Source: a virus. From it: 29,833 bases of DNA. A model generated the notes under the pieces. The model saw only the letters and a program-made list of their open reading frames with translations, searched no databases and was not told where the DNA came from. The DNA lies in the IMG/VR virus record IMGVR_UViG_3300043099_000569, positions 1 through 29,833 of that record; one strand, written 5' to 3'. A program made the position numbers and the translations under genes. Below are positions 16,833-23,457 of the stretch, piece by piece; position 1 is the stretch's first letter, and each line of letters starts with the position of its first letter.

Positions 16833-17423
16833 TTATTTGTTTATACTTATTTGTTTGCACGTTATACATTCGCCACAAGGCTTATCTCCACCGTATCTGC
16901 AATACCAACAAAGTTCTAGTAGTTCTTTTGGCATAGCGTCCATTGTGGCTTTTTTGGTTTGATTTAACAAGGGATATACAACTTCTACCCCTCTTTTTTC
17001 GGATAGCGTGGAGTTGTTTGAAACCAACTTTCTAATTTTATTAGCCCTAATTTGTCTTTTTACGTTTTCTGTTTTATAAATCGGCATATAGATACGATTT
17101 ATCGAAGACCACCTTTTTGCTCTCAAAATGATACCTATAAAAAAATTACAAACCTCAACGTCTTTAATAATTCCACCTATTCCACCATAGTCAAACTTGC
17201 TCTCTATGTACACGAAATTGGTTAATCCTCGTTTTTCTAGCCAAGAAAGTATGCTTTTTACTGCCAACGCTTCTTTTTTGCTTCTTTTTTCGTGATTTAC
17301 AAGGTGTATATGGTGTACTAAAATACAATCATTTGGATTGTTTAAAAGCCAATTATAAAGCACATAAGCACTATCTATTCCGCCCGAAAACTGAACTAGG
17401 GCTATCGGTTTTTCTTTATTCAT
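16833..17423 (-). CDS. QueC-like PP-loop ATPase
   Basis: A 196-residue protein with the PP-loop QFSGGIDSAYVLYNW (SGGxDS at 13-18) and a C-terminal zinc motif with Cys at 172, 175, 183, 186 and 189 (PCGECITC). Together these match QueC, 7-cyano-7-deazaguanine synthase, which makes preQ0 from a carboxy-deazaguanine with ATP and ammonia. Phages use such enzymes to make 7-deazaguanine DNA bases, normally with FolE, QueD, QueE and a DpdA-type transglycosylase. None of those is seen in this window, so the substrate could be supplied by the host, by genes outside the window, or be something else. It overlaps the AlkB-like gene by 8 bp. Confidence 0.78.
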   Translation of the reverse strand: MNKEKPIALVQFSGGIDSAYVLYNWLLNNPNDCILVHHIHLVNHEKRSKKEALAVKSILSWLEKRGLTNFVYIESKFDYGGIGGIIKDVEVCNFFIGIILRAKRWSSINRIYMPIYKTENVKRQIRANKIRKLVSNNSTLSEKRGVEVVYPLLNQTKKATMDAMPKELLELCWYCRYGGDKPCGECITCKQISINK

Positions 17424-17907
17424 TTATCTTAATGGTTTTTTTTGTTTCTCCCGTATATGTTCTAAACACTACTGAATAACGCAATTCTTTTGCCGTCGCT
17501 TTGTGTTGCCAATTCCAACGCAAATCGCCCTCCATAACATACAAGGAACGTGGCTCTATTTCGTATTTTAAACAGTCGCCTGATTGGTTTTTGAATATTA
17601 CTTCGGAGTGCCCTAATAAACTTAAAACAACTATTTGCTCTCCCGCAAGTTTATCGTCAATATGAAAATCAAGAAATTGTCCTTGTGCATACTCATTAAC
17701 CGTAACGCTATCAAAATTGCTTATACCGAGTTTTGTAAATATTTCGGGTATTTCTCTGCTTACAAAGTTGCTATTGTATGGCAAAATTAAGCCATAACGA
17801 TATACGTTGTTCCTACCTTCTTTCGTTCTTAAAACAAATTGCGGTATAGCCCTTAATATCTCTTGCTCTTGCTCTTTTGTAATATAGTTTGGGTGGTATC
17901 TCAACAT
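17416..17907 (-). CDS. AlkB-like 2-oxoglutarate/Fe(II) dioxygenase
   Basis: A 163-residue AlkB-type dioxygenase. N71 and Y73 of VNEYAQGQFLDFHIDD lie just before the Fe ligands H82 and D84. The third ligand is probably H135 in WNWQHKA, and RYSVVFR (R143 to R149) supplies the 2-oxoglutarate-binding arginines. Essentially the whole catalytic core is present, so it should be active. AlkB enzymes remove or oxidise alkyl groups on nucleic acid bases, but a few act on proteins. Its position between a SET-domain gene and a QueC-like gene suggests nucleic acid repair or modification. It overlaps both neighbours by a few bases. Confidence 0.88.
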   Translation of the reverse strand: MLRYHPNYITKEQEQEILRAIPQFVLRTKEGRNNVYRYGLILPYNSNFVSREIPEIFTKLGISNFDSVTVNEYAQGQFLDFHIDDKLAGEQIVVLSLLGHSEVIFKNQSGDCLKYEIEPRSLYVMEGDLRWNWQHKATAKELRYSVVFRTYTGETKKTIKINE

Positions 17908-18215
17908 TCTTTGTATCCTATTATGTCGCTTTTAAATGGGTATTCTAGTACCGAATAATCCGAAGTTAATTCCTCGTTTGGCTCTATGTCTTTTTTTGAA
18001 TATAGATAGTATTTTTCGCCTTCTTTTTTTAACACACAGTTTCCGTTTTTTTTATGATTAACAAACCGACCAAAAAATGTAATCCAATCTAAATTTTTTT
18101 TGTGTCTATTCAAATCAGCAACCAAAAAAATAGAAGTATCGCTTTCAATCTTGTTTGCAGTAAAAACTCCCTTGCCGTGTATTTGTGAATACGCTATGTA
18201 TATCTCAATATCCAA
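17901..18215 (-). CDS. SET-domain protein, putative lysine methyltransferase
   Basis: A small SET domain: SQIHGKGVFTA (GxG motif), GRFVNHKKNGNC (the RFxNHxxxxNC element) and EELTSDY near the C-terminus, the usual S-adenosylmethionine and pseudoknot motifs. The start is uncertain. ATGs at 18311, 18272 and 18266 would overlap the previous gene by 62-107 bp; the TTG at 18215 gives an 11-bp overlap and a complete 104-residue SET domain. I prefer the TTG, with low certainty. SET enzymes methylate lysines; the target here is unknown. It overlaps the AlkB-like gene by 7 bp. Confidence 0.78.
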   Translation of the reverse strand: MDIEIYIAYSQIHGKGVFTANKIESDTSIFLVADLNRHKKNLDWITFFGRFVNHKKNGNCVLKKEGEKYYLYSKKDIEPNEELTSDYSVLEYPFKSDIIGYKEC

Positions 18216-18537
18216 AGTGAAGTTTCTTTGACTTTTTTGAGCCGACAATTTTTCTTGATACAACATTTCCATTAGCGTCTTTTGTTTCTTCGATTTTAAC
18301 CTTTGGAACAAACGTAACTGCTTCCGCTACATTATCTCCTTGTTGAGTTGTAACTTGAATTACGCAACCCACTCCTTCAATTTCCATAGCCTTTGTTGAT
18401 TTAAGCCAACCCTCTGCTTTTGAGTGAGCCTTGCATATCAGTTTGAAGGTATCTCCGTCGCCCCAAAACTGAATGTCTTTTACGTTTTCTTTTGCTTTGC
18501 TAGAAGTCGTATTGCCTAGCGTTTTTTTTGTTTTCAT
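18205..18537 (-). CDS. Conserved phage protein, 110 aa
   Basis: I recall similar proteins in Bacteroides phages but know no function. The core, DIQFWGDGDTFKLICKA ... GWLKSTKAMEI ... GCVIQVTTQQGDNVAEA, looks like a small beta domain. The N-terminus is Lys/Ser/Thr-rich and the C-terminus basic. The gene is preceded by the longest copy of the repeated leader (18538-18565), which holds the 15-nt site complementary to the structured RNA at 23179-23306, so its translation may be specially controlled. Confidence 0.78.
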   Translation of the reverse strand: MKTKKTLGNTTSSKAKENVKDIQFWGDGDTFKLICKAHSKAEGWLKSTKAMEIEGVGCVIQVTTQQGDNVAEAVTFVPKVKIEETKDANGNVVSRKIVGSKKSKKLHFGY

Positions 18538-18565
18538 ACTTATTTGTTTTTATTGGTTAGTTTAA
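18538..18565 (-). promoter_or_regulatory. Repeated translation leader, copy A
   Basis: Read on the minus strand, TTAAACTAACCAATA (18565-18551) is followed by a 13-nt A-rich spacer, AAAACAAATAAGT, and ATG 18537. The motif contains the stop codon of the upstream 48-residue gene. Copies B and C keep the same 13-nt spacing. TTAAACTAACCAATA is exactly complementary to 23267-23253 of the minus-strand RNA candidate. Confidence 0.6.
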
Positions 18566-18703
18566 AATTATTGCTATTTCATACTTTAAAAAGGTAAAGT
18601 ACAATGTTTTTTGGCTTTTTCCATTACTGATTATTGTTTGCATAGAGATTGTAGGTAAAAAGTAAATGCTACTTTCACACTTTCGGCAATAGGTTTTTTT
18701 CAT
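18557..18703 (-). CDS. Small protein with a CxxC motif, 48 aa
   Basis: The frame runs from ATG 18703 to TAA 18557. It begins MKKTYCRKCESS, with Cys6 and Cys9 forming a CxxC knuckle; the remainder is hydrophobic and Lys-rich. No second Cys pair is present, so a full zinc ribbon would need dimerisation. It is accepted because it is preceded by leader copy B at the standard spacing and its stop lies within leader copy A, a coupled arrangement. Function unknown. Confidence 0.55.
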   Translation of the reverse strand: MKKTYCRKCESSIYFLPTISMQTIISNGKSQKTLYFTFLKYEIAIILN

Positions 18704-18729
18704 ATTTATTTATTTTTATTGGTTAGTTT
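18704..18729 (-). promoter_or_regulatory. Repeated translation leader, copy B
   Basis: Read on the minus strand, AAACTAACCAATA (18729-18717) is followed by AAAATAAATAAAT and ATG 18703. It shares 13 nt with the RNA-complementary part of copy A and has the same 13-nt spacer length. It overlaps the end of the upstream 53-residue gene. Confidence 0.55.
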
Positions 18730-18877
18730 TTTCAAATAGCCATTGTAGTAGTGGCTCTCTCGATGTTGCTTTAGTTCCACATACTATCCACATAGGTATA
18801 TGAATAATAAATAGTGCTATGCCGTCTAAAAGACAACAAGGGAAAAACAATAGTAATTGCATTATTCTTAATCTCAT
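18716..18877 (-). CDS. Small membrane protein, 53 aa
   Basis: The frame runs from ATG 18877 to TAA 18716. After a short basic start (MRLRIMQ), residues 7-32 are strongly hydrophobic (LLLFFPCCLLDGIALFIIHI), enough for one membrane segment, and the C-terminal 20 residues are polar. The gene has leader copy C before it and its stop lies in leader copy B. No family is recognised. Holin-like or superinfection roles are possible, but there is no evidence. Confidence 0.5.
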   Translation of the reverse strand: MRLRIMQLLLFFPCCLLDGIALFIIHIPMWIVCGTKATSREPLLQWLFEKTNQ

Positions 18878-18900
18878 ACTTATTTGTTTTTATTGGTTGG
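18878..18900 (-). promoter_or_regulatory. Repeated translation leader, copy C
   Basis: Read on the minus strand, CCAACCAATA (18900-18891) is followed by AAAACAAATAAGT and ATG 18877. The 13-nt spacer is identical to copy A, but only 8 nt (AACCAATA) continue into the motif. The end of the upstream 66-residue gene overlaps it. Confidence 0.5.
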
Positions 18901-19080
18901 CTTGTTGTCAATATATCCCTCTGCGTACATATAATTTACAAGTTGTTGCTCATTCATTACCATTTTGATATGGGCAAGTTTACTACGCTTGTTTGTGCCA
19001 AAATTTTCATATATCGAAACTTCAAAATTACAACCAATCTTTTCATAATCTAATTTTTTTGTCTTTGCCTTGTTAAGCAT
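18880..19080 (-). CDS. Hypothetical basic protein, 66 aa
   Basis: Unrecognised. It has a Lys-rich N-terminus (MLNKAKTKKLDYEK), a mixed alpha/beta-like centre and a Lys/Asn C-terminus. There are no Cys pairs and no membrane segment. It overlaps the end of the upstream 58-residue frame by 31 bp in another frame, and its stop lies in leader copy C. It is supported mainly by its place in a compact operon. Confidence 0.55.
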   Translation of the reverse strand: MLNKAKTKKLDYEKIGCNFEVSIYENFGTNKRSKLAHIKMVMNEQQLVNYMYAEGYIDNKPTNKNK

Positions 19081-22729: not shown

Positions 22730-22981
22730 TTAAACTTGTTCGTATGTTTTTTCAAATATATCGGGTTTGCAAGGGTAAAACTCGTTTGAAACACCTTTGA
22801 TAATATAATCTCCTTTTGAAGCAATCATTTTTCCTTCAAGTGTTTGGATATACATAGTTTCATCATTAGACGTGAAGCCGTGAGTGGTGTTGCCCAAAAA
22901 ATCATCAATTTCTTGTAGGTTACTTCCATTCCATACAACCGCTTGTATTACAACGGGTTTTTTTCTAAAATTTCTAATCAT
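22730..22981 (-). CDS. Conserved phage protein, 83 aa
   Basis: I recognise the pattern, not the function: [16 protein letters not shown] at the start and [20 protein letters not shown] near the end occur in a very widespread small phage protein family in many hosts. It is a compact soluble domain, probably beta-rich. It overlaps the upstream gene by 4 bp. It has been found near replication or recombination genes in other phages, as here. Confidence 0.82.
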
Positions 22982-23163
22982 AATTCTGTTTTTTTTATGT
23001 CGTTTAATTCGTATTTAGCAACCGCTTTCAAAACGTATGTTGTTTGTCTTTCTTTTTGAGCAAGTCTTATTGCTTCTCTTTCTGCGTCCGAAAAATTATC
23101 GTATAATCTAGTTGGCGTTTGTCTGCCTTCCACCATTACTGCAAAGTTTTGTTTTTCTTCCAT
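22978..23163 (-). CDS. Hypothetical protein, 61 aa
   Basis: Unrecognised. It begins [19 protein letters not shown] and continues with a helix ([18 protein letters not shown]) and a strand ([13 protein letters not shown]), an alpha/beta arrangement common in small phage proteins. It is the first gene after the structured RNA: its ATG lies only 16 nt past the closing stem, so the RNA could act as its 5' leader or riboswitch-like control. Confidence 0.7.
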
Positions 23164-23331
23164 TTTTATTTATTTTGTTTGATACAAGAGCCTTTCGGGA
23201 CTATTCACACGAAAGGGCGAAAAGCGTGATAGTGTTCCCTATTGCCCCCACTTAAACTAACCAATACCCTTCGTTTTTATAGTGTAAGCAAAGGCTTTGT
23301 ATCAAGTATTATATTCGTCTAATCCTTTATT
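23164..23331. other. 168-bp stretch without a gene
   Basis: No acceptable reading frame exists on either strand. The stretch holds the structured RNA candidate (23179-23306), a short A-rich leader for ATG 23163, and on the minus strand TATAATAC at 23314-23307, just before the stem. That could be a start-proximal promoter element, but no clear TTTG -33 box accompanies it. Confidence 0.6.
23179..23306 (-). ncRNA. Structured RNA candidate (leader RNA or trans-acting RNA)
   Basis: The two ends pair. On the minus strand, TTGATACAA then AGCCTTT (23306-23291) pairs with AAAGGCT then TTGTATCAA (23195-23179), 16 bp with one bulged G. Inside, GGGA..CTAT.CAC (about 23240-23226) pairs imperfectly with GTG.ATAG.TCCC (about 23210-23198), and CGAAGGG/CCCTTTCG offers an alternative stem. 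The segment TATTGGTTAGTTTAA (23267-23253) appears unpaired and is the exact complement of leader copy A (18565-18551). The strand is chosen because all genes and the following ATG are on minus. I do not recognise a known riboswitch, ribozyme or tRNA-like class. Pairings were found by eye. Confidence 0.5.
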
Positions 23332-23457
23332 TAACTTTTTAATTTTCTTTAATCTTTTAACGCTTTGTGGCGATTTTGCAATTACTTCAAGAAGCCCCTC
23401 GTAATGTCTAAGTTGCTTTTTTATTTCCTTTAATGTTTCTAGCGATATTTTAAACAT
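23332..23457 (-). CDS. Small Lys-rich helical protein, 41 aa
   Basis: The frame runs from ATG 23457 to TAA 23332, MFKISLETLKEIKKQLRHYE and onward, with a Lys-rich end. The whole chain looks like a charged amphipathic helix. It fills the space between the 32-residue membrane protein and the structured RNA. No family known; accepted on position and codon pattern only. Confidence 0.4.

Follow-up and report, generated by a model that had tools for sequence, protein, structure and literature searches.

A repeated 25-nt leader before small phage genes and its complementarity to a folded intergenic RNA

Three small genes in the window (the whole 29,833-nt stretch of the virus record IMGVR_UViG_3300043099_000569 that was analysed) are each preceded by a copy of the same 25-nt leader, which recurs as a start-associated sequence in a lineage of uncultured phages with a presumed Bacteroidota host. 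This leader is probably a module at which one gene stops and the next restarts, independent of the folded RNA with which it shares a 15-nt complement; the complement would then be incidental or recent and would not be the reason why the site is conserved. The A-rich gene starts and TAnnTTTG promoter-like sites suggest a Bacteroidota host for the phage, which encodes DnaB, exonuclease VIII, a RecT-like protein (annealase), RusA and HNH, and which has only distant relatives in the phage collection.

Anatomy and distribution of the leader

The consensus of the leader, CTAACCAATAAAAAYAAATAARTATG, is 25 nt long and contains no AGGAG. It carries TAA stops at -22, -15 and -5 relative to the ATG, one for each reading frame, and among 50 motif-led ORFs there are 27 in which the upstream ORF stops exactly at one of these positions. 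The three copies in the window each use a different TAA to end the ORF before them (Table 1). Between -14 and -3, all positions at which A is stimulatory for initiation in F. johnsoniae are occupied by A in the leader, and its distal core, TAACCAATAA, is separated from the ATG by 10-13 nt in most copies.

The reuse of the site before neighbouring starts, as described earlier for three genes, extends far beyond the window and identifies the leader as a lineage-wide start-associated sequence. In 35 contigs of the lineage (494 kb; labelled L with a number), collected by protein similarity alone with DnaB, RecT, exonuclease and other queries, 40 copies of the core with an ATG after it lie on the coding strand and a single one on the opposite strand; shuffled sequences gave a mean of 0.25 and a maximum of 1. 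Individual leader-bearing relatives have up to eight copies. The exact 25-mer consensus is present in 13 viral contigs among 2.9 million and, of the bacterial and archaeal sequences, in 1 contig (Mangrovivirga) among 84,980 species genomes. When the leader pattern was relaxed and run against the viral contigs, the matches listed were mostly background. Three other phage contigs (L108, L112 and L126) have a related but distinct repeated leader, TAACCAATAAAACCTAGAAATTATG, suggesting that the start sequence varies from lineage to lineage.

The leader is often retained with a gene while the genes around it change. In families 16, 55, 68, 94 and 97, motif-led homologues have differing neighbours, often on both sides. 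The gene at 18716-18877 has homologues (62-72%) in L021, L045 and L038, again with differing neighbours; the motif also stands before the L046 homologue of the gene at 18205-18537 and, in L041, before an ORF in which a PGDYG-like domain is fused to a domain of the 18205-18537 type. The gene at 18557-18703 has no homologue among the 35 lineage contigs. The motif is absent before many homologues of motif-led genes and is therefore not strictly tied to the gene. Elsewhere in the window, a QueC-like protein (16833-17423, minus) is encoded beside a 2OG-Fe(II) oxygenase-like protein (17416-17907, minus); the former suggests that the phage may use deazaguanine chemistry on DNA or RNA.

Table 1. Coordinates of the leaders, their genes and the RNA candidate in the window
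Feature	Position	Strand	Remarks
Leader motif 1, TTAAACTAACCAATAAAAACAAATAAGT-ATG, of gene 18205-18537	18535..18565	minus	ORF 18557-18703 stops inside at -22
Leader motif 2, AAAAACTAACCAATAAAAATAAATAAAT-ATG, of gene 18557-18703	18701..18731	minus	ORF 18716-18877 stops inside at -15
Leader motif 3, ACAAGCCAACCAATAAAAACAAATAAGT-ATG, of gene 18716-18877	18875..18905	minus	ORF 18880-19080 stops inside at -5
Motif-led gene, 110 aa	18205..18537	minus	homologues in L041, L046, L049
Motif-led small gene, 48 aa	18557..18703	minus	
Motif-led small gene, 53 aa, long hydrophobic stretch	18716..18877	minus	
Structured RNA candidate, intergenic	23179..23305	minus	folding prediction
15-nt stretch TATTGGTTAGTTTAA, complementary to leader 1	23252..23266	minus	
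61-aa gene directly downstream of RNA	22978..23163	minus	homologues in L095, L040, L037, L003
51-aa gene, stop codon overlapping RNA 5' end	23302..23457	minus	

The folded intergenic RNA and its complement in the leaders

The RNA candidate, at 23305-23179, has a predicted fold of -40.6 kcal/mol (z -4.0), with a closing helix (23305-23290/23195-23179), a hairpin (23239-23224/23210-23197) and, by inspection, a possible pseudoknot (23271-23267/23217-23213, AAGGG/CCCUU). It occupies the gap between two genes, and the closing helix ends 16 nt upstream of ATG 23163, leaving the A-rich start region of that gene free. No U-run follows the closing helix, as an intrinsic terminator would have, and no TAnnTTTG, the -7 promoter element of the host type, was found near the RNA, which would probably be transcribed within a long polycistronic message. 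A reading of the RNA as a tRNA or tmRNA was rejected.

Searches for relatives of this RNA returned little beyond the phage itself. Against Rfam, at gathering and relaxed thresholds, nothing in the window reached the gathering score and the remaining matches were at chance level (E up to 5); blastn against phages and plasmids gave no credible match; and the pattern GTGGGGGCAATAGGGA found, in viral contigs, the one near-identical strain and otherwise only unrelated sequences. The sensible matches to a pseudoknot descriptor were confined to the window and the same strain (L002), which differs at 3 positions over 14.85 kb, none of them in the RNA or the leaders. A covariance model, whose reach is limited because it was built on one distinct sequence, detected no convincing homologue in about 170 loci, 25 whole viral records and 395 Bacteroidota genomes. 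Its best match, L038:9991-10129 (plus; 20 bits, E 0.44), is intergenic, has a z of -2.9 and a 10-bp closing helix, and lies directly after the homologue of the gene at 18716-18877, with the leader motif behind the element. It folds differently from the window RNA, and a covarying pseudoknot (AAGGG/CCCUU versus AAGUG/CACUU) was considered, but the CACUU strand is already paired in a stem in L038, so that we do not claim it as a homologue. Upstream of the homologues of the 61-aa gene in L095, L040, L037 and L003 there is no such RNA, so the RNA does not accompany that gene as a fixed leader.

Other folded elements were encountered in the lineage. Several related phages carry strongly folded elements between their genes, with ends of the type CTAACGG...GTTAG (L232:11452-11565; L234:14194-14336; L049:4750-4872; L051:10003-10121); these match no Rfam family and resemble small mobile elements or attC-like hairpins. 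A circularly permuted tmRNA with the tag GNVIEMFPKLRAVA is predicted at L046:16867-17210 (minus) by ARAGORN as well as by Rfam (RF04321; 61 bits against a cut-off of 47). The adjoining phage genes run on the other strand, and the tmRNA was found in 1 of 20 related records. It would be unexpected if the host is one of the Bacteroidota, in which tmRNA is not known other than as a one-piece molecule.

The preliminary description had reported a 15-nt perfect complement between the RNA and the leader of ATG 18537. The match is real, and both partners are unique in the window, although the RNA segment had been placed one base off, at 23267-23253: TATTGGTTAGTTTAA occurs once, at 23266-23252 (minus), and its exact complement, TTAAACTAACCAATA, once, at 18565-18551 (minus). 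The leader before ATG 18703 does match 13 of the 15 bases, all of them contiguous; for the leader before ATG 18877, the 8 bases given previously hold as a contiguous run, the total being 11 of 15. All three sites end, as had been noted, 13 nt upstream of their ATG, and the complement covers the conserved distal core of the leader, from -28 to -14. Duplex energies with the RNA are -16.4, -15.1 and -10.3 kcal/mol for leaders 1 to 3. Computed on the fixed 15-nt stretch, the 15-bp hybrid (-16.4 kcal/mol) compares with a cost of 2.9 kcal/mol to open the same stretch of RNA, which lies within a predicted weak arm and not in an open loop; by this calculation the pairing is accessible and energetically favourable, as it should be for a trans-acting phage small RNA.

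How often such a match would arise by chance depends on what the RNA is compared with. A complement of at least 15 nt anywhere on the coding strand was obtained with 10 of 1000 dinucleotide-shuffled RNAs, making it an event of about 1%. Against all leaders, none of 1000 dinucleotide shuffles reached at least 15 nt, and one reached 14 nt. Against the three motif leaders, which were selected post hoc, 15 nt was reached in 0 of 20,000 shuffles and at least 13 nt in 5 of 20,000; and since the three are copies of one repeated motif, their matches count as one event and not as three. When real 143-nt coding-strand windows of the same stretch were matched to its leaders, 4 of 297 had at least 15 nt, those over the RNA included. 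The duplex energy summed over the three leaders was equalled by 2 of 300 shuffles, and the plain duplex energy of the best single leader was as good or better in 209 of 300. The 15-nt match is notable, but not conclusive.

A probable stop-restart module and rival readings

If the leader is a stop-restart module, as we believe with some confidence, it would act in the mRNA as a junction that ends any upstream ORF and offers an A-rich, unstructured initiation site of the Bacteroidota type, and it would permit small accessory genes to be inserted or exchanged within an operon while translation is kept. The annealase and exonuclease of the phage could recombine on the leader repeats. The different neighbours of motif-led homologues would be as expected of exchangeable cassettes, and the occurrence of the leader in phages with no recognisable RNA is suggestive of a leader that does not depend on it; the RNA would be a separate folded intergenic element, seen so far in this phage and the near-identical strain only. 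Several observations weigh against the module. It is the conserved distal core that the RNA matches, which would rarely happen by chance (0 of 20,000 shuffles); the contribution seen for -24 to -15 consists of the stops, and many phage genes start well on the A-rich 3' part alone (as in L095); and there are the many homologues of motif-led genes without the motif.

It was proposed in the preliminary description that a phage small RNA controls the group of tiny genes by pairing next to their start codons. The reuse of the site and the feasibility of pairing stand, whereas the comparison with relatives gives RNA control no support, and we now think it unlikely that the RNA at 23305-23179, made or processed separately, pairs through 23266-23252 with the motif. 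It is just as doubtful that such pairing, immediately upstream of the A-run that contacts the ribosome, represses or frees the translation of the three motif-led genes. The perfect complements of 15 and 13 nt to two leaders at equal distance from the ATG, their rarity in shuffled RNAs, the favourable balance of hybrid and opening energies, the summed duplex energy and the lack of a link between the RNA and the gene after it all argue for regulation; they have to be set against a best-leader energy that most shuffles match or beat, a site in a predicted weak arm, and an RNA with neither a TAnnTTTG element near it nor a U-run. Moreover, leader-rich relatives have no homologue of the RNA and no comparable complement: among the 16 other contigs that carry the leader, no coding-strand complement to the distal core exceeds 11 nt, and the occurrences of TATTGGTTA in them lie inside genes. 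Because these contigs are mostly fragments, the absence of RNA and complement is suggestive and not proof. The wider proposal, that the phage RNA evolved an antisense stretch against a start sequence that precedes many genes in the lineage and controls a class of interchangeable accessory genes, perhaps also those of co-infecting relatives, seems to us a long shot.

A role for the RNA in its own transcript has a somewhat better claim, although we hold it to be possible rather than probable. The RNA might serve the gene at 23163-22978 as a structured leader, a site of processing or a regulator, the distant complement then being a coincidence; this would suit an RNA that fills the intergenic gap and stops short of the A-rich start, but not the four homologues of that gene without such an RNA or the lack of any Rfam riboswitch or ribozyme match. 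The absence of the RNA before the same gene in relatives speaks instead for a small inserted element, whose complement would be a functionless scar of an inverted leader copy gained by recombination. The phage has a RecT-like annealase and exonuclease VIII, and unrelated structured intergenic elements occur in other lineage phages; nevertheless, the match ends sharply at 15 nt and no second copy of the element was found in the window or in any collection searched, which leaves such an insertion very improbable. The leader, finally, could be a binding site, in RNA or DNA, for a phage protein that is a translational repressor or a transcription factor. The conservation of TAACCAATAA beyond the needs of an A-rich start, its directionality and its near-invariant spacing agree with this; however, the stops of upstream genes inside the motif place it within operons, no candidate regulator was identified, and we judge a protein-binding site improbable.

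If the leader is indeed a stop-restart module, these phages own a standard part for adding genes, 25 nt that end the upstream frame and start the next in hosts whose translation does without Shine-Dalgarno pairing. Accessory genes of phages often encode anti-host functions, and the leader would be usable as a sequence tag for such genes in uncultured phages. It would also provide a direct test of what drives translation in Bacteroidota besides A-richness, and if the RNA acts on the leader as well, a whole class of such genes would be under one RNA.

Comparison with known systems

The closest precedent for the leader is the SAS (start-associated sequence) of the cluster K mycobacteriophages, GGGATAGGAGCCC, which contains an AGGAG core complementary to 16S rRNA (PMC3203893). 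Like it, the leader is short and asymmetric, is present in many copies in one phage lineage directly before starts, has a near-single orientation (here 40 versus 1) and is scarce in bacterial genomes (PMC3203893). The two sequences are unrelated, however, and the leader lacks a Shine-Dalgarno core, is A-rich and has stops in three frames; nor were the upstream 17-bp imperfect inverted repeats of the cluster K ESAS seen in the aligned leaders. Because the sequence and the Shine-Dalgarno core differ, the leader would work like SAS but is not a member.

On the side of the presumed host, A at -3, -6, -12 and -13 and an A-run from -14 to -10 are measured positive determinants of initiation in F. 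johnsoniae, and the leader resembles this Kozak-like region of Bacteroidota in having all of them (PMC6847099). In Flavobacterium and other Bacteroidota the signal amounts to a loose preference in composition, whereas the phage leader consists of 25 nearly invariant nucleotides and includes a distal element.

The RNA invites comparison with phage-derived trans-acting small RNAs, in that it is phage-coded and complementary to a leader beside a start codon. It differs from them in that no terminator follows it and no conserved pairing was found in the relatives, whose contigs are mostly fragments; as a separate transcript it is a candidate. It would differ, too, in its target: a single RNA would here address a repeated, lineage-wide leader.
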